Notes under the pieces: generated by a model
Seen by the model: the letters and a program-made list of their open reading frames with translations, nothing else
What the model was told of the DNA's origin: nothing
Databases searched by the model: none
Program-made: the position numbers and the translations under genes
Assembly (NCBI RefSeq): GCF_024584705.1
Contig: NZ_CP097384.1
Location: forward strand, 1,054,001-1,118,000
From: Blastopirellula sp. J2-11
GTDB lineage: Bacteria; Planctomycetota; Planctomycetia; Pirellulales; Pirellulaceae
Length of the DNA: 64,000 nt
Direction: 5' to 3'
Shown: positions 42,895 through 64,000 of the stretch, in pieces
How the letters are laid out: each line of letters opens with the position of its first letter
Position numbering within the stretch: the stretch's first letter is position 1

Positions 42895-43296
42895 TTATTT
42901 CGGTAGTTTCAGCCCGGGAATATCAAGCTCCAGCGGCTGGTCGGGCTGCAAGTCGACTTCCAGCGGCGTCGTTTTGCTGCTGGCGTACTTTTTGGGCAAG
43001 ACGACCGGCGAACCGACCGACTCGACAGTGAACCGGTACTTGCCGGGCTCCAACTGCAGTGGCCCCACCGCCGCCGGCTGAACCAATTCAAACGAACCAT
43101 CGGCGGCTGTAACGCCAAAACCGAGCGGCTTGTCGGCTGCATCGGACCGATAGACGTTTACTTGCATCTCGCCAAGCGGATTTCCGCTGGTTAGGAGCGT
43201 GCCGGAAGTTCCGCCGGTGACCGGCTTCGGACCGCAACCAACGCTGAGCGGCAGCAAAAATGCGGACAAGGTCAGGATTAGATTCAAGCGGTTCAT
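42895..43296 (-). CDS. Small lipoprotein, carboxypeptidase-regulatory-like
   Basis: A 133-residue lipoprotein: MNRLNLILTLSAFLLPLSVG then the lipobox Cys in VGCGPK. The body (TGGTSGTLLTSGNPLGEMQV, GFGVTAADGSFELVQ, then LEPGKYRFTVESVG) is the same beta-sandwich type as the other small lipoproteins here. Its ATG at 43296 overlaps the PepSY stop as ATGA (43293-43296), so translation is coupled. Function unknown. Confidence 0.85.
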   Translation of the reverse strand: MNRLNLILTLSAFLLPLSVGCGPKPVTGGTSGTLLTSGNPLGEMQVNVYRSDAADKPLGFGVTAADGSFELVQPAAVGPLQLEPGKYRFTVESVGSPVVLPKKYASSKTTPLEVDLQPDQPLELDIPGLKLPK

Positions 43297-46992: not shown

Positions 46993-49212
46993 ATGCTGCA
47001 TCGCTGGACACGATGGATCATCGCGACGCTCAGTTGCGTCGCGCTTGCGCTCAACGGTTGCTCGTTGCAGTGTTGGCGACTCTATGACTGTCCTGATCCT
47101 CCTGCTTACGAAGAGGACCTGATTCTGAAGTACGCAGGTCGCGGACTCAAGATTGAGGACCCTGCGCCCAACGTTTGTGAAGATGACAGTTTGCCCAACG
47201 TCCCGGTGTCGCCCGATGCGGCGGTTAGCGGGGAAGTGAAGTACAAGAACATCTCACTGCAGGAAGCGGTCGAAACGGCGCTGGCGAACTCGCAAGTCAT
47301 GAAAGACCTGGGAGGCGTACTCCGCAGCCCCGCGGCGTTGGCCACGATCTACGATCCAGCCCGAACTTATACGGATGGTCGCTTTGGTGAAGAAGCGGCG
47401 TTGAGCGCCTTCGACGCCAGTTTTGGCGCCAGCGCTTATTTTGAACAAAACGACTACGGCGTGAACAACGTGACGGTCGGGCAGAACGGCCTGTTCAAGC
47501 AAGACTACAATAACTACGAGATGTCGCTGCAAAAGAAAAGCGTCACCGGCGCCACTTTCACTTTGCGGAACGTCACCCAGTACGACAATAACAATCAAGA
47601 AGCGTCGTTCATCACCAACCCATTCGTGTTTGGGCAGTCATGGACGAACTACGCCGAAGCACAATGGCGTCAACCGCTCTTGCAAGGCGCCGGCGTCATG
47701 TACAACCGGATCGCCGGTCCGAACGGCGAACCGGGTTTCGCCAACGGCGTACTAGTCGCTCGCACGCGTACCGACATCAGTTTGGCCGATTTTGAGATCG
47801 CCGTCCGCAATCTGGTTAGCGATACCGAAAACGCCTACTGGGATCTCTACTACGCGTATCGTGATCTCGACGCCAAAGTGGAAGCACGCGACAACGCGCT
47901 GCGCGTTTGGCAAAACGTTCAGGCCAACGCCGGACAAGGTCGCCGGACCGCAGACCAGGAAGGTCAGGCTCGCGAGCAATACTATCGCTTTGAGTCGGAA
48001 GTGATCAACGCGTTGCATGGTCGCTTGACTCCGCGGACGCAAACCAACTATGGCAGTAACGGCGGTACGTTCATTCAAAACGGCGGCGTGCGCGTTTCTG
48101 AACGCCGACTGCGAGTGATCATGGCGGTTGAGATCAACGGACAGCAACTGCTGCGTCCAGACGATGATCCTCCCGTAGCCCAGGTGAAGTTCGACTGGGA
48201 CGCGATCGCGCTGGAAGCAGTCGCGCGTCGCCCGGAACTTCGCCGCCAAAAGTGGGTCATCAAACAGCGTGAGCTGGAGTTGATCGCGAACAAGAACTTC
48301 CTGAAGCCGCAATTGGACCTGGTCGCTCGCTATCGGCTACGCGGTTTCGGCAAAGACTTGTGGGGCTACGATCAGCCGCAATACGACAACGCAATCCAGA
48401 GCATGATGGATCGCGACTTCCAAGAGTATCAAATGGGGGTCGAGTTCGACATGCCGATCGGCTTTCGTCGAGGGCATGCGGCGGTGCGCAGCTCGGAGTT
48501 AGCGTTGGCCCGCGAAAAAGCGATTCTGCGCGAGCAGGAAAACTTCATCATGTACGGGCTGAGCAACACCTACGGCGAGATCGAACGCGCCCACCAGGTG
48601 ATGGAAGCCCAGTTCAATCGGCGGGAAGCGGCCTATGCTCAGCAGCGTGCCGTCGAAGCTTCGCACGAAGCCGGCTTTGCTCCGCTCGACTTGCTGCTCG
48701 AAGCGCAGCGCCGCGTGATCGACGCCAACATCTTGTTTTATCAGGCCCGCGTCGACTACGCCCAAGCGATCAAGAATGTGCATTACGAGAAGGGCTCGCT
48801 GCTAGAGCACAACAACGTCTTCTTGGCGGAAGGGCCTTGGCCGCAAAAAGCGTACAACGACGCTTTGCAACGTGACTTGAACAAGCGGCATGCGTTGACC
48901 AATTTTGTGATCAACGACGCATTGATCGGGCGACCGAAAAAGGTCGACTTCTCGCTCGAGCCGTCGAAGAAGCCGTATAAGTCGACGCCGATCTTTGAAG
49001 GCCCAGCCTTTCCAGAGACTTCGGAAGCGGAAACGATGCCGGAGAATCCGCTTCGACAAGAGAAAAACGAGATGCCGAGCGTGCAACCTGCTTCGCTGAG
49101 CGCTCCTCTGCGAGAAGAAGGCTCGGCGCCGGTAATCGAAGCGTCAAGCGAGGGGGAAATCGACTTCAGCGGCGAAGCGCCGACCGATTCGGCCTTCTGG
49201 ATTTCTCGCTAA
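46993..49212 (+). CDS. TolC-family outer-membrane efflux lipoprotein
   Basis: A 739-residue TolC-like channel protein. The signal ends in a lipobox (LALNGC at about residues 18-23), so it is lipid-anchored, with AGGAAAGGA just before the ATG. Two OEP-type helical halves are visible: the first (about 85-300) begins ISLQEAVETALANSQ, and the second (about 395-600) begins AIALEAVARRPELRRQ and includes long coiled-coil helices (SELALAREKAILREQENFIM, then AQQRAVEASHEAGFAPLDLL). The C terminus is a Pro/Glu-rich tail. TolC proteins give an exit through the outer membrane. It may serve the HlyD adaptors 4 kb downstream (inference). Confidence 0.85.
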   Translation: MLHRWTRWIIATLSCVALALNGCSLQCWRLYDCPDPPAYEEDLILKYAGRGLKIEDPAPNVCEDDSLPNVPVSPDAAVSGEVKYKNISLQEAVETALANSQVMKDLGGVLRSPAALATIYDPARTYTDGRFGEEAALSAFDASFGASAYFEQNDYGVNNVTVGQNGLFKQDYNNYEMSLQKKSVTGATFTLRNVTQYDNNNQEASFITNPFVFGQSWTNYAEAQWRQPLLQGAGVMYNRIAGPNGEPGFANGVLVARTRTDISLADFEIAVRNLVSDTENAYWDLYYAYRDLDAKVEARDNALRVWQNVQANAGQGRRTADQEGQAREQYYRFESEVINALHGRLTPRTQTNYGSNGGTFIQNGGVRVSERRLRVIMAVEINGQQLLRPDDDPPVAQVKFDWDAIALEAVARRPELRRQKWVIKQRELELIANKNFLKPQLDLVARYRLRGFGKDLWGYDQPQYDNAIQSMMDRDFQEYQMGVEFDMPIGFRRGHAAVRSSELALAREKAILREQENFIMYGLSNTYGEIERAHQVMEAQFNRREAAYAQQRAVEASHEAGFAPLDLLLEAQRRVIDANILFYQARVDYAQAIKNVHYEKGSLLEHNNVFLAEGPWPQKAYNDALQRDLNKRHALTNFVINDALIGRPKKVDFSLEPSKKPYKSTPIFEGPAFPETSEAETMPENPLRQEKNEMPSVQPASLSAPLREEGSAPVIEASSEGEIDFSGEAPTDSAFWISR

Positions 49213-50214: not shown

Positions 50215-52896
50215 TTACAAAATCTCGTAAGCGAAGTCGCCTGTTTCGTTGACGGTGACATTCACGCCGCCGATCTCTCCCCCGTCAGCCATCCGCGAAA
50301 GGAACTCGGACGAAAGTTCCGGCAGCAGCGTGCGGGTCAGAATCTTGTCGACGTTACGAGCGCCGGTGTCAACTTCTGTGCAGCGCGCGGCGATCGCGTC
50401 GACCAGTTGGTCGGTGTACTCGAAGGCGGCGTTGTAGTTTTCTTTGACCCGCTTGCCCACTTTTTTCAGCTTCAGGCGGACGATCTTCTTCATCACGTCG
50501 TCGGCCAAGGGGAAGTAGGGAATCACATCGACGCGACCAAGAAACGCCGGTTTGAACGTCTTTAGCAACTCTTCGTGCAGCGCTTCGCCCAATGCCGTCG
50601 GGCTCGGTTGTTGCTGCGGGTCGCGGCACATGTGCATGATCAGGTCGGTGCCGGCGTTGGACGTCATGATGATGACGGTGTTTTTAAAGTCGATGTCGCG
50701 TCCTTCGCCATCCTTCATGTGACCTTTGTCAAAGACTTGGTAGAAGATGTCTTGCACGCCGGGGTGCGCCTTCTCCATTTCGTCCAGCAAGATCACGCTG
50801 TACGGCTTGCGACGAACCGCTTCGGTCAGCACGCCCCCTTCGCCGTAACCGACATAGCCGGGAGGCGACCCCATCAGTAGCGAAACTTTGTGCTCTTCCT
50901 TGAATTCCGACATGTTGATGACGGTCAGATTCTGTTCGCCGCCGTACAACAAGTTGGCTAAGGTCAGCGCCGTTTCGGTCTTGCCGACGCCGCTGGTGCC
51001 GGCCAGCAAAAACGTGCCGATCGGGCGACTCGGGTCATCCAAGTGAGCCCGCGACGTCCGAATGCTTTCGGCGATTTGCAGCATTGCGTGCGTTTGGCCA
51101 ACCACCGCTTCTTCCATCAGGTCTTGGAGGTTCATCACCGTTTTGATCTCGTTCGAGACCATGCGGCCGACCGGAATGCCGGTCCACGCGGCGACCGTTT
51201 CCGCGACAGCGGCCGAATCGCAGCAAACGTGGACGAGCGGATCTTCGCCTTGAGCGGTTTCCAACTCGGCGTGCGTCGCTTGGATCTGGGTCCGAATCTC
51301 GCTCCGGTCGTCGTCGGTCAACAGAACCGGCGGTTCTTCCCCTTCTTTGACGGGGGCGCCCCGCAGTGCGTCGTCTTCGATCAGTTGTTTTTGCAGGTCG
51401 CGAATCTTAAAGACCAGCTCTTTTTCATTCGCCCACCGCTCGTTGAGCTTGGCGAGTCGTTCGGTCTCAACATTGCGAGTCGCTTCCAGATCGGCGATCG
51501 TAGTGGTGTGATCGTCGGCGCCGGCCGCCATTTCTCGTTCGAGAATGACGATCTCGGTTGTCAGTTGTTCGATGTGGCGATGCGCGTCTTCGATCTCTGG
51601 AGGCGTTGAGTTCTGGCTCAGTCCGATCCGGGCACAGGTCGTATCGAGCAAACTGACCGCTTTGTCCGGAAGCTGCCGACCGGCGATGTAGCGATTCGAT
51701 AGTTTGACCGCGGCTTCGACCCCTTCATTCAAGATGCGGACCGAGTGATGCTTTTCAAGCGTCGCGACCAGCCCACGCATCATGTCCATGCACTTGGGTT
51801 CGCTTGGCTCTTCGACCTTCACGACTTGAAAACGTCGCGCGAGGGCGGCGTCGCGTTCAAAATACTTCTTGTATTCGGCCCAAGTGGTCGCGGCGATCGT
51901 GCGTAGTTCGCCGCGAGCGAGCGCCGGCTTCAGCAAGTTGGCGGCGTCTCCTTGGCCTGCCTGACCGCCGGCGCCGATCATGGTGTGGGCTTCGTCGATA
52001 AACAGAATGATCGGCTTGGGCGAGCTTTTGACTTCTTCGATGACCGACTTCAAGCGGTTTTCAAATTCCCCTTTGACTCCGGCGCCTGCTTGCAACAGGG
52101 CGAGATCAAGCGTGCGGATCGAAACGTTGGCCAATACTTCGGGCACATCGCCGGCGGCGATACGCAGCGCGAAACCTTCGACGACCGCCGTTTTGCCAAC
52201 GCCGGCCTCGCCGGTAAGGATGGGATTGTTTTGACGACGGCGACAGAGGATGTCGACGATCTGGCGGATTTCGTCATCACGGCCAAGGACGGGATCAATT
52301 GCGCCGCTTTTGGCTCGCTCGGTCAGGTCGACCGTAAATTGATCGAGGGACGGCGTTTTGGAGGGTTTGCCTGGTTTGCCGGTCGCTGCGCCTTCTTTGG
52401 ATTCGGGCTTTTTGGTCGCTTCGTCCGTTTCGGCGGTGACGCTGGGAAGTTCGCGTTTGAGCGATTCGACCGAGATCTTGCCGAGCGCCGACGAACTTCC
52501 GACGATTGACCGCGACGAATTTTCGTCACTCAGCAACGCCAGCAAGATGTGGCCGGTGCGTACTTCGGGTTCGCCATACTCGATCGAAGCCAGCAGCCAA
52601 GCTTCGCGAGCCAGATCGACGATCGCCGGCGCGATGCTCGGCGGGCGGCCGTTGCCGGTTTTGAAGCGATCGATCGCTTTTGTCAGTTCTGAGGTGAACT
52701 GGGAGCGGTCGATTTCGTAGTACTTGAGGATCGCTTCCAGGTCGGTGAACGGCGCTTCCAAGATCTTGGTGAGCCAATGTTCGACCTCGATGTTGTAGTT
52801 GGTGCGCGACAGGCAGAGCCCCGCAGCAGATTCGAGAGCGCCTCGGCAGACGGGATTCAGTTTGCCGACGAGTGATTTCAGATTGAGTCCGGACAT
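50215..52896 (-). CDS. clpV: ClpV/TssH-type AAA+ disaggregase
   Basis: An 893-residue Clp/Hsp100 ATPase of the type VI secretion branch. The N domain starts LKSLVGKLNPVCRGALESAA, GLCLSRTNYNIEVEHWLTKI. Two AAA+ modules follow: Walker A GEAGVGKTAVVEG (about 229), Walker B ILFIDEAHT, then a coiled-coil middle domain (about 440-520), and the second Walker A GTSGVGKTETALT (about 633) with VILLDEMEKAH. ClpV recycles contracted sheaths TssB/C. No other T6SS gene is in the window. The ATG at 52896 (MSGLNLKSL) fits the family start better than those at 52947 or 53001. A ClpB-like role cannot be excluded but the N domain is of the ClpV type. Confidence 0.88.
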   Translation of the reverse strand: MSGLNLKSLVGKLNPVCRGALESAAGLCLSRTNYNIEVEHWLTKILEAPFTDLEAILKYYEIDRSQFTSELTKAIDRFKTGNGRPPSIAPAIVDLAREAWLLASIEYGEPEVRTGHILLALLSDENSSRSIVGSSSALGKISVESLKRELPSVTAETDEATKKPESKEGAATGKPGKPSKTPSLDQFTVDLTERAKSGAIDPVLGRDDEIRQIVDILCRRRQNNPILTGEAGVGKTAVVEGFALRIAAGDVPEVLANVSIRTLDLALLQAGAGVKGEFENRLKSVIEEVKSSPKPIILFIDEAHTMIGAGGQAGQGDAANLLKPALARGELRTIAATTWAEYKKYFERDAALARRFQVVKVEEPSEPKCMDMMRGLVATLEKHHSVRILNEGVEAAVKLSNRYIAGRQLPDKAVSLLDTTCARIGLSQNSTPPEIEDAHRHIEQLTTEIVILEREMAAGADDHTTTIADLEATRNVETERLAKLNERWANEKELVFKIRDLQKQLIEDDALRGAPVKEGEEPPVLLTDDDRSEIRTQIQATHAELETAQGEDPLVHVCCDSAAVAETVAAWTGIPVGRMVSNEIKTVMNLQDLMEEAVVGQTHAMLQIAESIRTSRAHLDDPSRPIGTFLLAGTSGVGKTETALTLANLLYGGEQNLTVINMSEFKEEHKVSLLMGSPPGYVGYGEGGVLTEAVRRKPYSVILLDEMEKAHPGVQDIFYQVFDKGHMKDGEGRDIDFKNTVIIMTSNAGTDLIMHMCRDPQQQPSPTALGEALHEELLKTFKPAFLGRVDVIPYFPLADDVMKKIVRLKLKKVGKRVKENYNAAFEYTDQLVDAIAARCTEVDTGARNVDKILTRTLLPELSSEFLSRMADGGEIGGVNVTVNETGDFAYEIL

Positions 52897-53275
52897 CAGG
52901 GCGGCTTTCGCGGTACGGATGAATGGTTGGCGGGCTGACAGCGGCATGCAATGTATCTTCGGGAGTGTAGGATCCGGTAAACGCCGTGGGTGAAAATGCA
53001 TCCCCAGGCGGTTCGCTTCCTACCGATAGGCGTACAATTTGGGAGGATTGGCGCGGTTGTAGCAACCAAATGTCGAGCCCTGGGGCGCGGAATCATGAAA
53101 GAGTCGTTTTGCGGGACGGTGTGTGAATATATTGGAACGTGTCGATCGCTCTGATTTGCCCCCAGCGCAGGTCGACCTTTATCATGCAACGGATGCGCAG
53201 CGAGGATCGCCGCCGCACAAAGAGGCCCCGGTCTGGGTAGGAAGTCCAACCGACACGCCGCTCTTTAGTCCGACT
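52897..53275. other. Divergent intergenic region with alternative starts
   Basis: About 380 bases between clpV and the GAF-HlyD gene. In-frame upstream starts exist for both (clpV at 52947 and 53001; GAF-HlyD GTG at 53123). No clear promoter or ribosome site decides between them. Confidence 0.35.
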
Positions 53276-55300
53276 ATGTCTTCCGAGACTCCTATTTCCG
53301 TTCGAACGGCAGAAGATGCTCGCCGGCAACTTGATTCGTTGTTAGACGAACTGGCTGATCTGGCTGAGGGATCCTCTGCGCCGGAAGATTTCTGGCCAGA
53401 ACTCTTGTCGAGGTTAGTCTTCGCTGCTTCCGCCCAAGGCGCCGCTATCTGGCAATGGGGAGGATCACGGCGATTGCAGCCGCTGTTTGAACAAGGCTTC
53501 GACAAGGTCTATCCCGGTCAACCACGCGATGTGGCGATCGATATCGACGCTTGCTCGCTGGAAGCGGCTCTGCGCAAGCCGAAAGCGTCGACCATTGTCA
53601 GCGGTGGTCAGGCAGACGGTCCCGCCCGCTTAATGTTGGTCGCTCCCTTGACGACCGCCGCTCGAGCAACCGGTTTGCTGGTGCTGTACCAACCGGCCGA
53701 TCTGCCGTCGGTGACGCAAAACGGTCAGTTGCGCCTGTTAGACGCGTTTGGCGAAATCGCGGTCCACTTCCAAGAGCGGCGTTTGCTGGCCGACTTTTCA
53801 GGCGCCGAACAAAACTGGAAGAATCAGCTTCACTTTGCCCGCGACGTTCATCGCGAACTCGACGTAAAACGGACTTGTTACCGCATCGCCAATGACGGGC
53901 GGCATGCGCTCGACGCCGATCGGGTCAGCGTCGCCGAGTGGGATGGACCGTCCGCTCATGTCCAGGCGATCAGCGGAGTTGACGTCCTGAACCGCCGCGC
54001 CGCGGTCGTACGCAAGCTTGAACGCTTGGCGACCGCCGTCGCCAAACAGAGACAACCGGTGATCTTTCGCGGTGATCGAGAAAATCTGCCGCCGCAAATC
54101 GAAGAGGCGCTGGTTGACTACTTAGAAGAGTCGCCGGCTCGACTGTTGATCGCCGTGCCGCTCGTGCGTGAAGCGGAGGAAGCTACCGAAGAACCTTGGA
54201 CATCGAATGACGGAATTCTGGTCGGCGTGATGATTGTCGAGCAATTGGAATCGACCGAAGTCGAACGTCTGCTCGCCCGCACGCGCAGTCTGGCCGAGTC
54301 GGCGACTTTGGCCCTCGACAACGCGCAGCGTTACGAGCGACTTCCGCTCCGCGGCGTCATGCAACTGATCGGTACGACGCTCGCCCAGTTCGGTTGGCGC
54401 AAGCTATCGCGCACGATGCGCTACGTTCTGCCGGTGCTGTTGGCGTTGCTGGCGACCTGGTGGATTCCGGCGCCGTTTGAAATCGACGTTCGCGGGCAAC
54501 TGCAACCGGAGATCCAGCGCCAACTGTTCGCTCCGCTCGATGGCTATGTCGATGAGATTTTGGTGAAACATGGCGAGATGGTCGCCGCCGGCCAGGTGGT
54601 CGCGCAGTTGCGTTCGCCTGACTTGGAACTGAAACAAACCGAAGCAGCGGGCCTGCTGTCGGCCGCTCAGTCTGAACTAGATGCGGTGCGCGTCGAACGA
54701 ACGCAAAACGTTCGTCGCGATGATGATCGTCGCGACAGTCGCAGCGCTGATCGCGACAAGCTATCGGCCGACGAAATTCGCCTGACTCGGCGGATCGCGA
54801 ACTTGCAGGAGCAACTGCTGCTGCTGGAAGCACAAGGGAGAGCGTTGATGCTGGTCGCTCCAGTCGCCGGCCAAATCTTAAGCTGGGATATCGAAGAGAC
54901 GTTGCAAGCTCGGCCGGTTTCCCGAGGTGACTCGCTGCTGAAAGTTGCCGAAGTCGATGGCCCCTGGATTCTGAAATTAGAAGCAGCCGATCGCCGCACC
55001 AAACATATTCTGAACGCTCAGGCCGCCGCCGACGCTCCATTGCCGATCACGTTTCACTTAGTCAGTGAGCCCGGCGTCAAGCATCCCGCGACGCTAGCCG
55101 AGATTTCGCAGGTCATCGAAGTGGGAACCGAAACCGACGAGCCGGCGGCGATGCTAACGGCGCACTTCGACAAATCGGAAGTCGACTTTCTACGGCCCGG
55201 GGTGACGGTTTCAGGACGCGTTAACTGCGGCACGCGCAGTCTGGCTTATGTCTGGACGCATGAACTGTTCGATGCGGTTCGCCGCCGCCTTTTCTGGTAA
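53276..55300 (+). CDS. GAF-domain HlyD-like adaptor protein
   Basis: A 674-residue membrane fusion protein. The N-terminal half holds two GAF-like domains (about 25-170: GAAIWQWGGSRRLQPLFEQG, ARLMLVAPLTTAARATGLLV; and about 190-360: RVSVAEWDGPSAHVQAISGV, RLLIAVPLVREAEEATEE). A membrane helix (about 378-398, YVLPVLLALLATWWIP) follows, then a lipoyl/HlyD domain beginning FEIDVRGQLQPEIQRQLFAP, a coiled-coil hairpin (about 480-560), and APVAGQILSWDIEETLQ. GAF domains would face the cytosol, so signals could gate the adaptor (inference). The ATG at 53276 is used; an upstream GTG at 53123 would add 51 residues. It opens a tight three-gene operon. Confidence 0.85.
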   Translation: MSSETPISVRTAEDARRQLDSLLDELADLAEGSSAPEDFWPELLSRLVFAASAQGAAIWQWGGSRRLQPLFEQGFDKVYPGQPRDVAIDIDACSLEAALRKPKASTIVSGGQADGPARLMLVAPLTTAARATGLLVLYQPADLPSVTQNGQLRLLDAFGEIAVHFQERRLLADFSGAEQNWKNQLHFARDVHRELDVKRTCYRIANDGRHALDADRVSVAEWDGPSAHVQAISGVDVLNRRAAVVRKLERLATAVAKQRQPVIFRGDRENLPPQIEEALVDYLEESPARLLIAVPLVREAEEATEEPWTSNDGILVGVMIVEQLESTEVERLLARTRSLAESATLALDNAQRYERLPLRGVMQLIGTTLAQFGWRKLSRTMRYVLPVLLALLATWWIPAPFEIDVRGQLQPEIQRQLFAPLDGYVDEILVKHGEMVAAGQVVAQLRSPDLELKQTEAAGLLSAAQSELDAVRVERTQNVRRDDDRRDSRSADRDKLSADEIRLTRRIANLQEQLLLLEAQGRALMLVAPVAGQILSWDIEETLQARPVSRGDSLLKVAEVDGPWILKLEAADRRTKHILNAQAAADAPLPITFHLVSEPGVKHPATLAEISQVIEVGTETDEPAAMLTAHFDKSEVDFLRPGVTVSGRVNCGTRSLAYVWTHELFDAVRRRLFW

Positions 55301-55307
55301 CGAATCA

Positions 55308-56231
55308 ATGATGAAGCGATTATTCCCGATCACGTTCTGTCTGGCGGCGCTGACCGTTTCGTCGGCAGACGCAGACGACATTCCGGTTAGCTCGACGCTG
55401 CTCAAAATTATTGAGACGGTCGAAGTGCCTGCTCAGCAACCTGGCGCGCTGGAGAAAGTCAACGTCCGCGAAGGCACGCTCGTCGACCGAGGAGAGGTGA
55501 TCGCCAATATCGCCGCCACCGAGATGGAGTTGGAACTGAGCGTCAAGCGGTCCGAACACGCGATCGCCCAGCGAGAAGCGACGAACGACGTCAATATTCG
55601 CTTTTCTCGCAAATCCTTGGAAGTTTCCCAGGCCGAGTTGCAACGAGCGCTCGACGCGATCGCGACCTTTCCGAACGCCGTTACCGATACTGAACTCGAC
55701 CGCTTGCGACTGTTGGTCGAGAAGAATCGCCTGGAGATTGAACAGTCGAGCGAGCAGCAGGAGATCGCCAAGCTGACCGCTGGTTTGAAGTCGGCCGAAG
55801 CGGAGATTACTGCGGCGAAATTGGCCAAGCATCAGATCGTTGCGCCGATCGAAGGGATGGTCGTGCGCGTTTTTCGTCGCGTCGGCGAATGGGTCGACAT
55901 CGCCGATCCTGTCGTCAAGATCGTGCGGATCGATCGACTGCGAGCCGAAGGTTTTGTGCGGAGTGAAGAAGCGGCGCTGGGGTTGCAAGGTCGCACGGCG
56001 ACCGTTCGCGTGACGCTGCCGCATAGCGACGAGTTGGTCGCGCCGGGCAAAGTGACCTTTGTCGATCCCGAAGTCGATCCTGTTAGCGGCGACGTACGCG
56101 TTTGGGTTGAGATCGAGAACGCCGACCTGAAACTTCGTCCTGGTTTGCGAGTCGAGATGTCCATTTCCAACGCGGCGATGACTGACAACACAGACGATCA
56201 AGCGGCCGAAGAGGTCACAGTGGGAAGCTAA
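55308..56231 (+). CDS. HlyD-family periplasmic adaptor
   Basis: A 307-residue adaptor (membrane fusion protein). Signal or anchor at 1-23 (MMKRLFPITFCLAALTVSSA), a lipoyl motif split around a coiled coil (PGALEKVNVREGTLVDRGEV at about 45-64 and IVAPIEGMVVRVFRRVGEWV at about 183-202), then a barrel domain with TATVRVTLPHSDELVAPGKV and VDPEVDPVSGDVRVWVEIEN. It starts 8 bases after the GAF-HlyD stop and ends 4 bases before the next gene, so the three are an operon. It likely bridges inner and outer membrane to a TolC-like channel. Confidence 0.87.
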   Translation: MMKRLFPITFCLAALTVSSADADDIPVSSTLLKIIETVEVPAQQPGALEKVNVREGTLVDRGEVIANIAATEMELELSVKRSEHAIAQREATNDVNIRFSRKSLEVSQAELQRALDAIATFPNAVTDTELDRLRLLVEKNRLEIEQSSEQQEIAKLTAGLKSAEAEITAAKLAKHQIVAPIEGMVVRVFRRVGEWVDIADPVVKIVRIDRLRAEGFVRSEEAALGLQGRTATVRVTLPHSDELVAPGKVTFVDPEVDPVSGDVRVWVEIENADLKLRPGLRVEMSISNAAMTDNTDDQAAEEVTVGS

Positions 56232-56234
56232 ACA

Positions 56235-58421
56235 GTGACCGCATCGCTGCAAGTTCGTATTCGTCCCGATCTAAAGATCGTTCGCCAACAGGGGACGATA
56301 GAGCCGCGGTTCGTGGTAAAGGACCCGGTATCGCTTCGCTATTTCTACTTTGGCGAACACGAGATGTTCATCATGCGGCGTCTGAATGGTCAGATGTCGG
56401 TCGCCGAAATTCAAACGGCGTACCAGGAAGAATACGCACCGCTCAAGATTCGTCCGATCGAGATTACATCGTTCTGTCATTCGCTGCATTCGCGTGGATT
56501 GGCGATCGGCGGCGTGACCGGCGAGTCGCAGCAACTGTTGCAGCGAGCCGATCAGCAGCGACTGTGGCGCTGGTCGACGGCGCCGCTCTCGATTCTCTCG
56601 ATTCGTTTGCCAGGCGTCGATCCCGATGCAGTGCTGACGGCGATCGCTCCCTATTTTGCGTGGCTCTTTCAGCGAGCGACGGTCGCGTTGGTCTTGGCCT
56701 TCGCGAGCGTGCTGATGTTGCTGGGCCTGTTGCACGCCGAGCAGATCCTCGACCGGATGCCGAGTGCGCAATCGTTGTTGCAGGGGCAAAATCTGCTCTG
56801 GATGGCGATCGCGCTGGCGCTGGTCAAGATCTTGCATGAACTGGGGCACGCGCTGGCCTGTAAGCATTTTGGCGGCGAGTGCCATCAGATCGGCGTCATG
56901 CTGTTGGCGTTTATCCCTTGTTTGTACTGCGATGTTTCGGATTCTTGGCTGCTGCCAGAACGAAAAAAGCGGATGTTCGTCTCAGCGGCGGGAATGTACG
57001 TCGAGCTAATCGTCGCGTCGCTCTGTGCGGTGCTGTGGTGCTTTAGCGAGCCGGGGATGGCGCAGTCGATCTGCATGAGCGTGATGTTGATCGCCAGCGT
57101 CAGTACGGTGCTGGTCAACGGCAATCCGCTGATGCGATACGATGGGTACTATTTGTTCGCCGATTGGATCGACGTGCCAAATCTGTCGCAACAAGCGAGC
57201 GAAGCGTTGCGGCGCCCGCTGGTCCATTTTTTCACGCGCCGGGCGACGAGTGAAATCCGACTCGACGCAAGTTCCGCATTTCTGCGAACCTATGCGGTGC
57301 TGGCGCTCGCCTATCGGACGATGGTGATTGGGGTTCTGCTCTGGTTCGTCTATAAGATGTTAAAAGCGAACGACCTGGCGCCGCTGGGCGATGGGGTCGT
57401 GATGTTGGTGCTCGCTGGGTTGCTGTTGCAGCCAGCAATTGGCTTTGCGAGGTGGTGGAAACGTCCGATGGCGAAGCGCGAACTACGAGGCAAACGTTTG
57501 GCGGCGGCGGTGATCGTCGTCAGCATCTTGTTGCTGGGAATGCTGCAAATACCGTGGGCGGCTCGCGTGCAAACGCCGATCCTGGCGCAATTGGCCGATT
57601 CGCAAACGATTTATGTTCCGGTCGAAGGACGCATCGAGTCGACGGTCGCAGCGGGAGAAAGAGTTGTCGCCGGCGCGGCGCTGGCCAAACTGATGAACGA
57701 GGAGATCGAGCTGCGGCGCGTCGAGTTGACCGGCGATCTGGACGAACAACGACAGCATGTCGAAAACCTGCGTCGGCAGTTGAATAATGATCCGACCGCC
57801 GCCGCGCAAATTCCCGCAGCCGAAGCGGTGCTAACCGATCTAGGGCGGCAATTGGATGTAGTGAATCGAGACGTCGAGCGGCTGACCATTCGAGCGCCCA
57901 GCGATGGGATCGTCTTTCCTCCTCCGTTGCGCGAAGAAAAACGAGGTAGCGATCGTCAGCTCTCCTCCTGGAGTGGGACGCCGTTGGATCTGACGAATCG
58001 CGGTGCGCTGCTCCTCCGTGGGGAACCGCTGGCGATCGTCGCCGCGACTAATCGGATCGAGGCGCAACTGCTCGTCCATCAGCGAGATGTCGATCTGGTC
58101 GCCCCAGGGGACGAGGTCGAACTGCTGTTTGACGGGCTATCGGGCAATACGATCCGCGGACGAATCGTCGAGATCTCGCGTGCCGAACTTCTCGCCGCTC
58201 CGCGCAATCTGGCCCAAGGCGCCGAAGTGCTGATCGAACAGGGAGAGTCCGGCGAAATGGCGCTGGTCGAGCGAACCTATCAAGCGACGGTCGAATTGGA
58301 TTCGTTGCCGGCGACGCTGTTGCCGGGTACGCGCGGCAAAGCGATCGTGCTGGGACGCTCGCTCACCTTGGGAGAGCGAATCTCTCGCTGGATCAGCGGC
58401 AATTTTCGTTTTGAATTGTAA
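56235..58421 (+). CDS. PqqD-like/M50 zinc metalloprotease fused to an HlyD-like adaptor
   Basis: A 728-residue fusion. Residues about 20-95 resemble a PqqD/RRE-type peptide-recognition fold (FVVKDPVSLRYFYFGEHEMF, LNGQMSVAEIQTAYQEEY). Residues about 140-460 are an M50 (site-2 protease-like) membrane domain with the zinc motif HELGH (201-205) and the second motif NPLMRYDG (297-304, Asp303). About 485-728 is an HlyD/lipoyl domain (TIYVPVEGRIESTVAAGERV, then LTIRAPSDGIVFPPP). It begins with GTG. Similar M50-HlyD fusions accompany export or maturation of peptides or large secreted proteins. It ends the operon, convergent with the next gene by 18 bases. Confidence 0.85.
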   Translation: MTASLQVRIRPDLKIVRQQGTIEPRFVVKDPVSLRYFYFGEHEMFIMRRLNGQMSVAEIQTAYQEEYAPLKIRPIEITSFCHSLHSRGLAIGGVTGESQQLLQRADQQRLWRWSTAPLSILSIRLPGVDPDAVLTAIAPYFAWLFQRATVALVLAFASVLMLLGLLHAEQILDRMPSAQSLLQGQNLLWMAIALALVKILHELGHALACKHFGGECHQIGVMLLAFIPCLYCDVSDSWLLPERKKRMFVSAAGMYVELIVASLCAVLWCFSEPGMAQSICMSVMLIASVSTVLVNGNPLMRYDGYYLFADWIDVPNLSQQASEALRRPLVHFFTRRATSEIRLDASSAFLRTYAVLALAYRTMVIGVLLWFVYKMLKANDLAPLGDGVVMLVLAGLLLQPAIGFARWWKRPMAKRELRGKRLAAAVIVVSILLLGMLQIPWAARVQTPILAQLADSQTIYVPVEGRIESTVAAGERVVAGAALAKLMNEEIELRRVELTGDLDEQRQHVENLRRQLNNDPTAAAQIPAAEAVLTDLGRQLDVVNRDVERLTIRAPSDGIVFPPPLREEKRGSDRQLSSWSGTPLDLTNRGALLLRGEPLAIVAATNRIEAQLLVHQRDVDLVAPGDEVELLFDGLSGNTIRGRIVEISRAELLAAPRNLAQGAEVLIEQGESGEMALVERTYQATVELDSLPATLLPGTRGKAIVLGRSLTLGERISRWISGNFRFEL

Positions 58422-58439
58422 CGCCGCGCTGCAGCAACT

Positions 58440-59225
58440 CTACGGTAGGACGAATGCGGCCCCGGTATAGAACGTTCCCATGTAGGCGGCTCCACGCCAG
58501 CTCCAGGGGAGCCCATGTCGGTCATGCGGATTGTTGTCGCCGGGGCGATAGTGACCCAGCGTATAGATGCGTTCGCATGGTGGGTTGACGCCGATCTTGT
58601 AGGGCAAGATCAGCGTGTTGGCGAAGAAGTGAGCCGCAGAGACCGCCGGTTGCACCACGCGATGGCGATTGCCATAACGCTCCAGGTTCACTTCTTCAAA
58701 GTAGAGCGGGCGGTGATAGAAAGCGGGCGCTTCCCACATCGCGACCGACGGCGCCCAAGGGCGTTGTACGCCGTAGATTGAGTCGACTTCGGGGTATTCG
58801 GCGAAGAGTTCCTGGGCGACATTGGCCGGCAGTTTGACTTGATGCTCGGCGTTGGTCTGAATATCGGGATCACGATAGCCGGTGTTGATCGTGTAGGAGT
58901 CGGCCGGGCGGCGCTCAAGCAAGGTTTGCAATTGCTCTGGCGTCATGCTGTTGAAGGGATCGTGACCGCTTGCGACAGAGCGATAGAGCTCACCGTAACG
59001 CTTGCCGGGGGGGAGGATATCGTCTTCGGTGATCATTGTCCCTTGGGGGACGATTTCATCCGGCGGAGGATCGACCGGTCCAAGTTCTGGCTCCGCCGTT
59101 TGGACGAGCGTGACCGGCCGAATGCGAAACGGTGTTTCTGCAGGTTCAGCGCGGACCTCCCACGAAGCAAGAATAACTCCGCAGAGGGGCAATGCGATCA
59201 GGCAGAGGCTATTAAGTAGACGCAT
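58440..59225 (-). CDS. Secreted protein of unknown function
   Basis: A 261-residue protein with a signal peptide (MRLLNSLCLIALPLCGVILA, cleavage near residue 26). The mature part is Pro-rich and has conserved-looking marks: WEAPAFYHRPLYFEEVNLER, QPAVSAAHFFANTLILPYKI, and NPPCERIYTLGHYRPGDNNP. I recall similar hypothetical proteins in planctomycetes, but no function is known. Not clearly linked to the export operon, with which it is convergent. Confidence 0.65.
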   Translation of the reverse strand: MRLLNSLCLIALPLCGVILASWEVRAEPAETPFRIRPVTLVQTAEPELGPVDPPPDEIVPQGTMITEDDILPPGKRYGELYRSVASGHDPFNSMTPEQLQTLLERRPADSYTINTGYRDPDIQTNAEHQVKLPANVAQELFAEYPEVDSIYGVQRPWAPSVAMWEAPAFYHRPLYFEEVNLERYGNRHRVVQPAVSAAHFFANTLILPYKIGVNPPCERIYTLGHYRPGDNNPHDRHGLPWSWRGAAYMGTFYTGAAFVLP

Positions 59226-59525
59226 CCTTCGTCTTCACCATACGAGTGCGAACGGGCCAAATGTCTCCGTTTCCTTTCGATCGGCGTTTCACCGGATCTT
59301 AGTCCAGTCGTCTGGAGACAGACGGTACAGCTTCCGCATATTTGGCAAAATCGGCGCCATCGGAAGAGGTTAGGCTAGTCGGATCGTATTGATTTGCGCG
59401 ATTCAGGAAATCGGAAACCGTAGGAATGAGGGAATTGCTGGCGCGTTTCGTTGACATCCTCAGGAATCGTAACTTGAATGGGAAAATACGTATCTTTTGA
59501 CGGCTAGAGGGGTTATGTGCACATC
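59226..59525. other. Divergent intergenic region before the giant protein
   Basis: About 300 bases with GAGGGG at 59507-59512, a possible ribosome site for a GTG at 59517 or ATG at 59526 in the same frame as the giant protein. No other gene or hairpin was identified. Confidence 0.35.
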
Positions 59526-59603
59526 ATGCATACCTCGCTGGCGAAGAATTTCTTGCCATGCGCTGCCGAGCGTCAGGCGAGCGACCGACCAAGGCGCTAC
59601 CGA

Positions 59604-62600
59604 ATGAACCGAAAGCGAATTTTTTCGCGTTGGCTAAAGCGAAAATCGCGCCGTGCGGATGCCGCCGCGCCCCGCTTTTTCGATCAGTTCGATACGAAGC
59701 TCCGCTTTCGAGAGTTGGAGCCGCGCGTCGTTTTAAATGCCGACGCCAATCTTGTCGGCGACGTACTCCAAGTTGAAGTCGACGACGCCAATGATGCGGT
59801 CGAAGTCCGCTTTTATGACGACGGCGGCACAAGCTACTACCAAGTCACAGATGGGAAAGGGTTTGACCAGAAGTGGGATGCGAGCCTTGTGGCGGGTATT
59901 ACGGTCAGCGACACTTCGCCAGGCGTCGAAGACGGGCAACAGGTGACGTTACTGGATGACCATGCGACGATCGATCCTTCGCTCAGTAAAGGGCTGATAA
60001 CCAATGGCATCGAGACCGTTTCCTTCAATGGCTCCACTCCCGGCGATTCGTGGACATTCGCTACTGAAGTTTCGATCACGGCCGATACGCACGATGCAGA
60101 GGTCAATCAGTCCGGCGCCGATTTGCTGACCCCGGCGATGACGCCGGTCAGCTTCGCCGCGATCAACGGCGCCGAGATCGATGTCACGCTGAACTCGACG
60201 AGCAACGAGATCTCGCTGCTGAACGTCAGCCAAGGTGGCGACGTGAAGCTCGTAACGGCGGATGATATTTCGCTGGATCAGATCGAAACGCAATCTCTCG
60301 AACTGACCTCGAGTAAGTCAATCGGCGACGCGACCGGCGCTTCGCTCGACATCAGCGGTCCGGCGACGTTCGATGCCGGTACGACGATCGAACTAGCGAA
60401 CGAAGCTGGCGACGTCCTGCAGGTAGATGACCTCGCGAAGTTCAAAGCCGGCGGCTCGATCGACATCGGCCTCGCAGGCACAGCGAATTTTGACACGCTG
60501 ATGTTTCAAGGCGACGTGGTGACGATCGAGGAGGATAGCGATACCGTTCTCTCCGGTTCCAATACCGCCAACTCACTCGACTTGACTTCGAACGCTTCCA
60601 TTACCGACGCTGGGGGCGTATCGATCGTGATTAGTGGTCCAGCGTCGTTCGACGCAGGCACGACGATCATCCTGGCGAATGAAGCCGGCGATATCCTGCA
60701 GGTAGACGATCTGGCGAAGTTCATCGCCGGCGGCTCGATCGACATTGGCCCGGCCGGAACAGCGAATTTCGGCTTGCTGAATTTTCAGGGCGGCGCGGTG
60801 ACGATCCAAGAGGATAGTGACACGGTTCTCTCCGGTTCCAGCACGGCGAACTCGCTCGACTTGACTTCGGACGCTTCGATCACTGACGCCGGCGGCGTTT
60901 CGATCGTGATTAGTGGTCCAGCAACGTTCGACGCAGGGACGACGATTAACCTGGCGAATGAAGCTGGCGATATCCTGCAGGTAGACGATCTGGCGAAGTT
61001 CAACGCGGCCGGCTCGATCGACATTGGGCCGGCAGGAATGGCGAACTTTGGTTCGTTGACATTTACTGGCGGCGCGGTGACGATCCAAGAGGATAGTGAT
61101 ACGATCCTTACAGGCACGAATACGGCGAACTCGCTCGACTTGACTTCGAACGCTTCCATCACCGACGCGTCCGACGCTTCGATTGTAATTAGCGGTCCAG
61201 CGACGTTTGACGCCGGCACGACGATCATCCTGGCGAATGAAGCCGGCGATATCCTGCAGGTAGACGATCTGGCGAAGTTCATCGCCGGCGGCTCGATCGA
61301 CATTGGCCCGGCCGGAACAGCGAATTTCGGCTTGCTGAATTTTCAGGGCGGCGCGGTGACGATCCAAGAGGATAGCGACACCGTTCTCGCCGGCACGAAT
61401 ACCGCCAACTTTCTTAGTCTGACGTCGAACGCTTCGATCACCGATGCAAACGGCGCTTTGATTGACATCAGCGGACCAGCGGCGTTCGCAGCAGGTACGA
61501 CGATTGACCTAGCGGATGAAGCCGGCAATATCTTGCAGGTGGACGATCTTGGGAAGTTCATCGCGCCTGGCTCAATCAACATCGGCCTGGCGGGGATGGC
61601 AAACTTCGGTATGCTGAACTTTCAAAGCGATGTTGTGACGATCCAAGAGGATAGCGACACCATTGTCGTCGGTATCAATACGGCCACCTTGCTCAGTCTG
61701 ACATCGAACGCCTCGATCACCGACGCGGCCGGGACTTCGATCGACATCAGCGGTCCAGCGACGTTCGACGCCGGCACAGTGATCAACCTGGCGAACGAAG
61801 CTGGCGACATTTTGCAGGTGGATGACCTGGCGAAGTTCATCGCCGGCGGCTCTATCGACATCGGCCCAGCCGGAACAGCAAATTTCGGCTTCCTGAATTT
61901 CCAAGGCGATGTGGTGACGATCCAAGAGGATAGCGACACCGTTCTCTCTGGTTCCAACACCGCCAACTCGCTAGACTTGACTTCGATCGCATCAATCACC
62001 GACGCCAGCGGCGCTTCGATCGACATCAGCGGTCCAGCGACGTTCGATGCCGGCACGGTGATCAACCTGGCGAATGAAGCTGGCGACATTTTGCAGGTGG
62101 ATGATCTAGCGAAGTTCATGGCGGCCGGCTCAATCGACATCGGCCCGGCCGGAACAGCAAATTTCGGCTCGCTGATGTTCCAAGGCGACGTCGTGACGAT
62201 CCAAGAGGATAGCGATACGGTTCTCGCCGGCACGAATACCGCCAACTCGCTTGACTTGACTTCTAACGCTTCAATCAGCGACGCCACCGGCGCTTCGATC
62301 GACATCAGCGGTCCAGCGACGTTCGATGCCGGCACGGTGATCAACCTGGCGAACGAAGCTGGCGACATTTTGCAGGTAGATGACCTAGCGAAGTTTATCG
62401 CCGCTGGCTCGATCGACATCGGCCCGGCGGGAACGGCGAATTTCGGCTCGCTGATGTTCCAAGGCGACGTCGTGACGATCCAAGAGGATAGCGACACGGT
62501 TCTCGCCGGCACGAATACCGCCAACTCGCTTGACTTGACTTCTAACGCTTCAATCAGCGACGCCACCGGCGCTTCGATCGACATCAGCGGTCCAGCGACG

Positions 62601-64000
62601 TTCGATGCCGGCACGGTGATCAACCTGGCGAACGAAGCTGGCGACATTTTGCAGGTAGATGACCTAGCGAAGTTTATCGCCGCTGGCTCGATCGACATCG
62701 GCCCGGCCGGAACGGCGAATTTCGGCTTGCTGAATTTCCAGGGCGACGTGGTAACGATCCAGGAAGATAGCGATACCGTTCTCTCCGGCGCGAACACCGC
62801 CAACTCACTCGACTTGACTTCGAACGCTTCAATTACCGACGCTGGGGGCGCTTCGATCGTGATTAGCGGTCCAGCGACGTTCGACGCGGGCACGACGATC
62901 AATCTGGCCGATGCGGGAACAGACCTGCTGCAGGTAACGGACTTAGCGACGCTCAAGGCCGCCGGCTCGATCGACATCGGCCCCGCCGGCACGGCGAATT
63001 TCGGCACGCTGACGTTCCAGGGCGACATGGTGACGATCCAGGAGGATAGCGACACCGTTCTCTCCGGCGCGAACACCGCCAACTCACTCGACTTGACTTC
63101 GAACGCTTCAATTACCGACGCTGGGGGCGCTTCGATCGTGATTAGTGGTCCAGCGTCGTTCGACGCAGGCACGACGATCATCCTGGCCGATGCGGGAACA
63201 GATCTGCTGCAAGTGGATGACTTGGCGACGTTCATCGCCGCCGGCTCGATCGACGTCGGCCCGGCGGGCACGGCGAATTTCGGCTTGCTGACGTTCCAGG
63301 GCAGCGCGGTGACGATTCAAGAGGATGGCGATACCGTTCTCTCCGGCACGAATACGGCCAACTCGCTCGACTTGACTTCCAACGCTTCAATTACTGACGC
63401 CGGCGGCGCTTCGATCGTGATTAGTGGTCCGGCGACGTTCGACGCAGGGACGACGATCAACCTGGCCGATGCGGGAACAGACCTGCTACAGGTAACTGAT
63501 TTAGCGACGTTCAAGGCCGCCGGCTCGATCGATGTCGGCCCGGCGGGCACGGCGAATTTCGGCACGCTGAATTTTCAGGGCGGCGCGGTGACGATCCAAG
63601 AGGATAGCGACACGGTTCTCTCCGGTTCCAACACCGCTAACTCGCTCGACTTGACGTCCAACGCTTCAATTACTGACGCCGGCGGCGTTTCGATCGTGAT
63701 TAGTGGTCCAGCAACGTTCGACGCAGGGACGACGATTAACCTGGCGAATGAAGCTGGCGATGTCCTGCTGGTAACTGATTTAGCGACGTTCATCGCCGCC
63801 GGTTCGATCGATGTCGGCCCCGCCGGAACCGCGAATTTTGGCTTGCTGAATTTCCAAGGCAGCGCGGTGACGATCCAGGAGGATGGCGATACCGTTCTCT
63901 CCGGCACGAATACGGCCAACTCGCTCGACTTGACTTCCAACGCTTCAATTACTGACGCCGGCGGCGCTTCGATCGTGATTAGTGGTCCGGCGACGTTCGA
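59604..64000 (+). CDS. Giant LEPR-XLL surface repeat protein (partial, runs off the window)
   Basis: An open frame of more than 1465 residues without a stop to the window end. It begins with a basic N terminus (MNRKRIFSRWLKRKSRRADA), then RFRELEPRVVLNADA (residues 35-49): the LEPR-XLL motif found at the N terminus of very large planctomycete surface proteins. Non-repeat residues 46-215 are followed by 93-residue repeats (60243 onward), each of the form TIQEDSDTVLSG, NTANSLDLTSNASITDA, ISGPATFDAGT, ANEAGDILQVDDLAKF, GSIDIGPAGTANFG: short amphipathic strands, probably a beta-solenoid or filament, Cys-free and acidic. In-frame starts at 59526 (ATG) and 59517 (GTG) would add 26-29 residues. It probably is exported by an unknown route; the HlyD/M50 operon upstream is a candidate (inference). 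Confidence 0.85.
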   Translation, partial: MNRKRIFSRWLKRKSRRADAAAPRFFDQFDTKLRFRELEPRVVLNADANLVGDVLQVEVDDANDAVEVRFYDDGGTSYYQVTDGKGFDQKWDASLVAGITVSDTSPGVEDGQQVTLLDDHATIDPSLSKGLITNGIETVSFNGSTPGDSWTFATEVSITADTHDAEVNQSGADLLTPAMTPVSFAAINGAEIDVTLNSTSNEISLLNVSQGGDVKLVTADDISLDQIETQSLELTSSKSIGDATGASLDISGPATFDAGTTIELANEAGDVLQVDDLAKFKAGGSIDIGLAGTANFDTLMFQGDVVTIEEDSDTVLSGSNTANSLDLTSNASITDAGGVSIVISGPASFDAGTTIILANEAGDILQVDDLAKFIAGGSIDIGPAGTANFGLLNFQGGAVTIQEDSDTVLSGSSTANSLDLTSDASITDAGGVSIVISGPATFDAGTTINLANEAGDILQVDDLAKFNAAGSIDIGPAGMANFGSLTFTGGAVTIQEDSDTILTGTNTANSLDLTSNASITDASDASIVISGPATFDAGTTIILANEAGDILQVDDLAKFIAGGSIDIGPAGTANFGLLNFQGGAVTIQEDSDTVLAGTNTANFLSLTSNASITDANGALIDISGPAAFAAGTTIDLADEAGNILQVDDLGKFIAPGSINIGLAGMANFGMLNFQSDVVTIQEDSDTIVVGINTATLLSLTSNASITDAAGTSIDISGPATFDAGTVINLANEAGDILQVDDLAKFIAGGSIDIGPAGTANFGFLNFQGDVVTIQEDSDTVLSGSNTANSLDLTSIASITDASGASIDISGPATFDAGTVINLANEAGDILQVDDLAKFMAAGSIDIGPAGTANFGSLMFQGDVVTIQEDSDTVLAGTNTANSLDLTSNASISDATGASIDISGPATFDAGTVINLANEAGDILQVDDLAKFIAAGSIDIGPAGTANFGSLMFQGDVVTIQEDSDTVLAGTNTANSLDLTSNASISDATGASIDISGPATFDAGTVINLANEAGDILQVDDLAKFIAAGSIDIGPAGTANFGLLNFQGDVVTIQEDSDTVLSGANTANSLDLTSNASITDAGGASIVISGPATFDAGTTINLADAGTDLLQVTDLATLKAAGSIDIGPAGTANFGTLTFQGDMVTIQEDSDTVLSGANTANSLDLTSNASITDAGGASIVISGPASFDAGTTIILADAGTDLLQVDDLATFIAAGSIDVGPAGTANFGLLTFQGSAVTIQEDGDTVLSGTNTANSLDLTSNASITDAGGASIVISGPATFDAGTTINLADAGTDLLQVTDLATFKAAGSIDVGPAGTANFGTLNFQGGAVTIQEDSDTVLSGSNTANSLDLTSNASITDAGGVSIVISGPATFDAGTTINLANEAGDVLLVTDLATFIAAGSIDVGPAGTANFGLLNFQGSAVTIQEDGDTVLSGTNTANSLDLTSNASITDAGGASIVISGPATF
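60243..64000 (+). repeat. Tandem array of 279-base repeats (93 residues) with no indels
   Basis: The mark ACGATCCA(A/G)GA recurs at 60522 (as ACGATCGAGGA), 60801, 61080, 61359, 61638, 61917, 62196, 62475, 62754, 63033, 63312 (ACGATTCAAGA), 63591 and 63870, always exactly 279 bases apart. The first unit (60243) has diverged. Units 62196 and 62475 differ at only one or two positions over about 225 bases. The array goes on beyond the window. Confidence 0.95.

Follow-up and report, generated by a model that had tools for sequence, protein, structure and literature searches.

Adaptors of the HlyD family normally work with ABC or RND pumps. What, then, do three tightly packed HlyD-type genes do at a planctomycete locus where no such pump is found, and does the giant protein encoded after them belong to the same system? 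We analysed a stretch of 64,000 nucleotides from Blastopirellula sp. J2-11, which we call the window. Its relevant features are:

46993..49212, + strand: TolC-like outer-membrane channel lipoprotein, 739 aa, the probable exit channel (Pfam OEP 7.5e-18)
50215..53001, - strand: ClpV/TssH-like AAA+ ATPase, a neighbour that we do not count with the machine (TssH NCBIfam 1276.7 against a cut-off of 884.95)
53276..55300, + strand: GAF-HlyD adaptor, 674 aa (Pfam GAF_3 1.9e-9, GAF 2.3e-8, HlyD_3 4e-8)
55308..56231, + strand: HlyD periplasmic adaptor, 307 aa (HlyD_D23 1.2e-15, RND_mfp 2.2e-28; the HlyD_D23 scan used a start 60 bp earlier)
56235..58421, + strand: RRE(PqqD-like)-M50-HlyD protein, 728 aa, which we propose as leader receptor and inner-membrane adaptor and possibly as leader protease (Peptidase_M50 8.6e-8, above cut-off; HlyD_3 1.6e-7)
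59517..64000, + strand, continuing to genome position C1:1123533: giant LEPR-leader repeat protein, 3338 aa (DUF5649, LEPR-8K)

The preliminary description of this locus was accurate on the trio itself. Domains and positions are as it claimed, the genes are separated by only 7 bp (GAF-HlyD to HlyD) and 3 bp (HlyD to M50-HlyD), and HELGH and NPLMRYDG can be read directly in the M50 protein. The combination of GAF and HlyD recurs in a Pontibrevibacter operon protein (Pfam). The TolC-like gene, placed 4 kb upstream, is present with its OEP match and ends 4063 bp before the trio. Of the 82 planctomycete M50 regions that we fetched for the survey below, 19 had a called TolC relative, compared with 0 of 20 control regions. 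The claim that the locus has no pump gene also agrees with our searches: a Walker A plus LSGG pattern scan from window position 43001 to about 71 kb gave no ABC nucleotide-binding domain, and Pfam, applied to the 27 larger window ORFs, gave no match above cut-off to ABC_tran or to an RND-pump family.

The giant gene had been placed about 1.2 kb downstream, and its ORF indeed starts 1095 bp after the trio. The real start is probably at 59604, where the same-genus orthologues begin. A 261-aa ORF on the opposite strand lies between the trio and the giant. The N-terminus of the giant is basic with the core RFRELEPRVVLNADA, its leader core is RELEPRVVLNADA (LEPRVVL from 59715), and no hydrophobic signal peptide was seen by eye. 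The part inside the window contains 13 DUF5649 stretches (Pfam). At the C-terminus (genome C1:1123200-1123533, L008) a hydrophobic stretch is followed by an Arg-rich tail, which looks like a sorting or anchoring signal. The order of trio and then LEPR-leader giant is repeated in the same genus (L031, L162) and in a sister genus (L016, L017, L163, L164), so the arrangement is more than chance.

The giant had been called a LEPR-XLL protein. A LEPR-type leader is present, but the LEPR-8K score of 13.6 bits is below the NCBIfam cut-off of 17 (LEPR-XLL, NF012209), so LEPR-like is the exact label; the sister-genus giant at L016 scores 13.4 bits. The planctomycete surface signal RRLxxExLExRxLLA (Studholme 2004, PF07595) is reported on very large surface proteins; PMC8567305 gives a signal of this type for 8 of the 10 longest proteins of Tuwongella. 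The window giant has no PF07595 match at E<=0.1 (cut-off 25.5 bits), and another protein of the same genome (C1:2666165) passes that cut-off with 28.1 bits. The likeness to the PF07595 and NF012209 proteins lies in the same kind of short N-terminal motif and in the association with very large surface proteins.

The locus had been presented as a candidate new system, and this no longer stands, since the module was already described in 2015. Kamneva, Poudel and Ward reported loci in which a secondary SecA_DEAD gene is accompanied by genes for GAF-HlyD, HlyD and M50-HlyD and sometimes by an OEP gene, without an ABC transporter and with Planctomycetes and Proteobacteria among the hosts; in Methylobacterium extorquens AM1 the module is META1p2399-2402 (PMC4452313). 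In the sections of that paper that deal with the module, the SecA-like ATPase is without most of SecA_SW, some SecA genes of this type are placed elsewhere in the genome, SecA is proposed to be the ATPase and the M50 protein the pore, and no substrate is named (PMC4452313). A term search of its main text returned "giant", "LEPR" and "pqqd" 0 times and "substrate" once. No paper joining LEPR-XLL or PF07595 to the module was found in open-licence PMC, where absence is weak evidence. The PF07595 signal, as it is treated in the relevant section of PMC8567305, has no export machine assigned to it. The window locus resembles the 2015 module in having the three genes together and differs from it in having no SecA_DEAD gene in the same neighbourhood. 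To us it is a variant member of this module, which is known though uncharacterised, and what our analysis adds is the substrate link.

No secondary SecA gene was called in the window neighbourhood. The same genome holds a paralogous trio (C1:2634415-2639781), whose M50 protein is 34% identical to the window copy. A SecA-like gene of 654 aa (C1:2640079-2641992) lies directly upstream of this second trio and, of the 4 candidates scored in the genome, it alone is an A1 (SecA2) match at E<=1e-185. The earlier view that the system has no motor has to be corrected, as a secondary SecA-type ATPase is a usual partner of the module and one adjoins the genome's second copy. Since the second copy has this adjoining ATPase, a motor candidate exists in trans, and our guess is that it serves the window copy from 1.5 Mb away. 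The gene directly downstream of the second trio encodes a protein of 1141 aa that has cyclophilin, Ig and dockerin domains (Pfam) and carries the leader-like core IETLEVREVFDAAG. Relatives of this LExR-leader protein repeatedly adjoin a secondary SecA gene in two families (L010:4166-7591; L029; L166-L169; L171; L190; L191; Pfam was run on L010 and L190). The protein may assist folding outside the cytoplasm, or it may be a marker substrate.

How the module is distributed relative to leader proteins was surveyed across the Planctomycetes. Of 294 genomes of the phylum, 101 have M50-HlyD (E<=1e-20); within the family the count is 59 of 60 (E<=1e-40). We collected 82 M50 regions of up to 20 kb (60 plus 20 around hits, and the two of the source genome), 20 regions round a secondary SecA with no M50 close by among the matches listed, and 20 controls chosen arbitrarily. 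An ORF of at least 200 aa, starting inside the region and with LExR in its first 150 aa, was counted as a leader protein. Such a protein was present in 22/82 M50 regions, 7/20 SecA2 regions away from M50 and 1/20 controls, or, per ORF, in 28/773, 9/199 and 1/223, respectively. These counts are not independent draws, as the genomes are related and the M50 regions were taken from high-scoring hits, not at random, with many of them belonging to one family.

Within the M50 regions, a leader protein was found in 11/15 regions with SecA2, a group that overlaps the full-trio group, in 19/50 regions with the full trio, and in 1/29 regions with neither full trio nor SecA, the other 28 having none. Two regions in which no M50 ORF was called (L042, L072) were kept in the denominator of 82, within the group of 29, and one with no SecA2 ORF called (L201) was kept among the 20 SecA2 regions. 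A gene overlapped by a longer antisense ORF can be lost in our ORF calling, so a missing call does not prove absence. In the Planctomycetes the operon does in part occur mostly without giants, which speaks against the proposed link: 31 of the 50 trio regions have no leader protein, and M50-HlyD is present in nearly every genome of the family. This is not so in the proteobacterial loci described below.

The PF07595 signal was also compared with the module at the genome level, with few candidates scored per genome. A best match at E<=0.005 was obtained in 28/101 M50-positive versus 3/193 M50-negative genomes (p 1e-11), and outside the class in 6/51 versus 3/191 (p 0.003), both without kinship correction. 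Outside the class the association is weak at E<=0.01 (6/51 versus 8/191, p 0.08) and returns at E<=0.05 (14/51 versus 21/191, p 0.006). Within the class, the median number of PF07595 matches per genome was 8 in 42 SecA2-positive genomes (A1 match at E<=1e-185; for G065 the frame was not shown) and 1 in the 10 without, again without kinship correction. Several PF07595 genes of a sister genus map less than 50 kb from the SecA2 operon (in G230, 4 of the 7 among the matches listed, 12 in all). A leader DNA pattern applied to the 294 genomes was too narrow, giving 2 matches in the source genome versus 9 for the reversed control; the single-genome pattern was without CTN leucine codons.

Outside the Planctomycetes we looked for co-occurrence within genomes. 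The SecA2 scan of genome contigs returned mostly apparent canonical SecA, with an M50 relative at only one of 80 loci (L084). From these, 30 mostly proteobacterial loci were taken and 29 genomes were searched, 25 of them non-planctomycete, with E<1e-5 defining a strong LEPR-8K match and more than 500 bits a full-length M50-HlyD. Both occurred in the same 3 of the 25 genomes, Geobacter, Oceanospirillaceae and Aidingimonas (Fisher p 4e-4). Two other genomes had weak LEPR matches without M50 (E 0.0014 and 0.05), and two further ones had partial matches to the M50 model (75 and 98 bits). The four planctomycetes of the same set had M50 in three cases and LEPR-8K in one.

The giant frames of these three genomes measure 15080 (Geobacter), 9270 and 8732 aa; in Aidingimonas we judge from the length of the frame that the giant ends close by. 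The gene order is GAF-HlyD, M50, SecA-like and HlyD in Aidingimonas, an HlyD frame followed by M50, SecA-like and HlyD in Geobacter, and HlyD, GAF-HlyD, M50 and SecA-like with a divergent giant in Oceanospirillaceae. In Geobacter (G349:C1:94747 onward; L265, L264) the open frame of the giant begins with a LEPR-type leader and is followed by the M50-HlyD, SecA-like and HlyD genes.

Relatives of the M50 protein are also carried on plasmids. A tblastn search gave 72 plasmid records, and we inspected 18 loci, one per record. An ORF of at least 1400 aa was within the fetched stretch at 17 of the 18; the remaining one is truncated where its record begins. Two giants span the start of their record, and for these the match is by position alone. 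The leader was found in 14 of the 16 readable N-termini of giants or large neighbours. It was not seen in Indioceanicola, where the start is uncertain, or in Phyllobacterium, and two Rhizobium loci with an unreadable N-terminus are outside the 16. The form xEPRxLLxAD occurs in Methylosinus, Mesorhizobium, Pontibrevibacter, Pseudosulfitobacter, Pseudohalocynthiibacter, Thalassospira, Sinorhizobium and Ensifer, the last two loci being near-identical. A LEPRxxFDAA-like form occurs in two Azospirillum, Niveispirillum, Tistrella (with the leader ORF about 5 kb beyond the M50 match), Cupriavidus (LEPRLLYDAA) and E. coli (LESRQLFDGAA). Public annotation labels the giant "LEPR-XLL" in three plasmid records, and 6 of the 9 proteobacterial giants tested reached the LEPR-8K cut-off (17 bits).

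In Methylosinus, Mesorhizobium, Pontibrevibacter and Pseudosulfitobacter the cluster consists of the giant, a long HlyD, a PqqD/M50 protein, a SecA-like protein and a short HlyD, with TolC in addition in some cases. A SecA relative was called in 9/18 plasmid loci and none in the fetched stretch of the other 9, so SecA is not a universal partner. Five alphaproteobacterial clusters have a small DUF3467 protein, a possible chaperone, encoded between the giant gene and the adaptors (L222:11514-11834; L223:10581-10886; L224:13824-14105; L226:7641-7985; L228:11669-11965). The E. coli plasmid NZ_CP081687.1 (L239, L245) carries the module in a form that has no linked SecA, together with a 4459-aa Ig-like protein whose N-terminus is ALESRQLFDGAAL. 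The E. coli M50 gene was found in 24 of 5426 E. coli genomes, in 22 of them at a coverage of at least 80%.

The M50-HlyD protein of the window was inspected for features of a leader receptor and a protease. A model of residues 1-120, built from 2 sequences and with a mean pLDDT of 68, has as its top Foldseek PDB matches 6jx3_B (E 2.9e-4), 5v1v, 5v1u and the PqqD structure 5sxy. Among these, 6jx3, 5v1v and 5v1u are lasso-peptide RREs solved with a leader peptide. The N-domain is thus modelled as a winged-helix RRE-type leader-binding fold. The PqqD-like fold of the preliminary description is supported by this model, but not by the Pfam PqqD profile, which scores 13 bits against a cut-off of 23.4; at E<=1 the profile matches 18 of 20 members, the window protein included (best 1.3e-7). 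Peptidase_M50 scores 32.2 bits (cut-off 27.2). The metal motifs are retained in relatives, with HExxH in 80/80 and NPxxxxDG in 79/80 M50 ORFs. A full-length model had a pLDDT of 38 and was set aside.

The earlier proposal that the adaptors and the M50 protein belong with LEPR-leader giants is borne out by giants beside or in the cluster in Alpha-, Beta- and Gammaproteobacteria and in Geobacter, and by the RRE fold on the M50 protein. Because relatives in several phyla adjoin tagged giants, we suggest that the module recognises a shared N-terminal tag and exports the giants. The window trio probably supplies the envelope components of a protein exporter that is directed by a leader, and the downstream LEPR-leader giant is the likely substrate of this exporter. 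From the fold and the gene linkage we infer that the RRE domain of M50-HlyD would bind the LExR leader at the N-terminus of the giant, on the cytoplasmic side. The SecA-type ATPase encoded with the second module copy would drive the chain, and the remaining two HlyD adaptors would, judged by family, form together with the TolC-like protein a path through the periplasm and the outer membrane. The intact M50 site may cut the leader. The GAF domains may perhaps gate or regulate the process, which is the weakest element of this scheme.

A different cargo has to be considered. The module might export or trim a small peptide or a metabolite in a RiPP-like manner, with the giants as mere neighbours in shared surface islands. 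The M50 part resembles maturation proteases of the daptide (8.9e-47) and YydH/LiaK (1.3e-13) kinds, although neither match reaches its cut-off, and 60 of the 82 planctomycete M50 regions have no leader protein. What the window protein shares with RiPP systems (lasso-peptide B1 RRE and PqqD; daptide and YydH/LiaK M50) is an RRE fold linked to a membrane protease with HExxH and NPxxxxDG, but it differs from them in its C-terminal HlyD fusion and in the giant-protein cargo that we propose. Since a giant with the same leader lies beside or inside the cluster across several classes of Proteobacteria and in Geobacter, we regard a RiPP-like cargo as unlikely.

Another route of export for the giant, through Sec or an unlinked ABC type I system, with the trio only processing or regulating at the membrane, appears to us equally improbable. 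Loci without a called SecA exist, and the usual partnership of HlyD adaptors with pumps counts toward this reading. The window locus shares with the classical type I system (HlyB-HlyD-TolC) the HlyD-family adaptors, the TolC-family channel and a giant adhesin-like cargo. The type I secretion signal is C-terminal, whereas the window locus has an apparent N-terminal signal, an extra RRE-M50 protein and no ABC transporter that we could find. A Vibrio LEPR-XLL giant is described with C-terminal RTX and serralysin domains in the relevant part of PMC10868602, which hints that some LEPR-XLL giants use an ordinary type I signal. However, a separate ABC motor is not a regular neighbour of the module, as the pattern scan found an ABC nucleotide-binding domain in 1/50 trio regions and in 1/20 controls. 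Moreover, the SecA-like gene recurs in the cluster, and the TolC and HlyD parts argue for a conduit.

That the ClpV/TssH ATPase replaces SecA as the motor of the window copy in this lineage is very improbable: it adjoins the trio in 8/82 M50 regions, all from same-family genomes (divergent in one genus, co-directional in others), and a diverged M50 relative in G315 is also beside ClpV, but its score exceeds the T6SS TssH equivalog cut-off, the two genes preceding ClpV in L016 and L017 read by eye as TssF/TssG, and other family genomes (e.g. G309 and G317) have ClpV with no M50 within 10 kb among the matches listed. We read this ATPase as a putative part of a type VI system and rejected it as a dedicated motor, since it scores as TssH and the TssC gene of the genome is elsewhere, at C1:5855322, so that the ATPase stands alone at the window locus. 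In a sister genus ClpV is co-directional and directly upstream of the trio, after the apparent TssF and TssG.

Returning to the leader-directed exporter, we lean slightly towards a broader reading, in which it represents a distinct Gram-negative secretion class reaching from Planctomycetes to Geobacter and Alpha-, Beta- and Gammaproteobacteria. In such a class, the LExR leader on giants would be read by the fusion of RRE, site-2 protease and HlyD, a SecA-type ATPase would drive export through an HlyD and TolC path, and one branch, found also on E. coli plasmids, would be without a linked SecA. The planctomycete "LExRxLLA" and the proteobacterial "LEPR-XLL" would then be the same export signal. 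Two orphans seem to pair here, the 2015 module without a substrate and the giant-protein signal without an exporter. This pairing makes the surface transport of proteins of 3,000 to 15,000 residues directly testable. If true, a RiPP-type leader-binding fold and a site-2-type protease would have a role in protein secretion.
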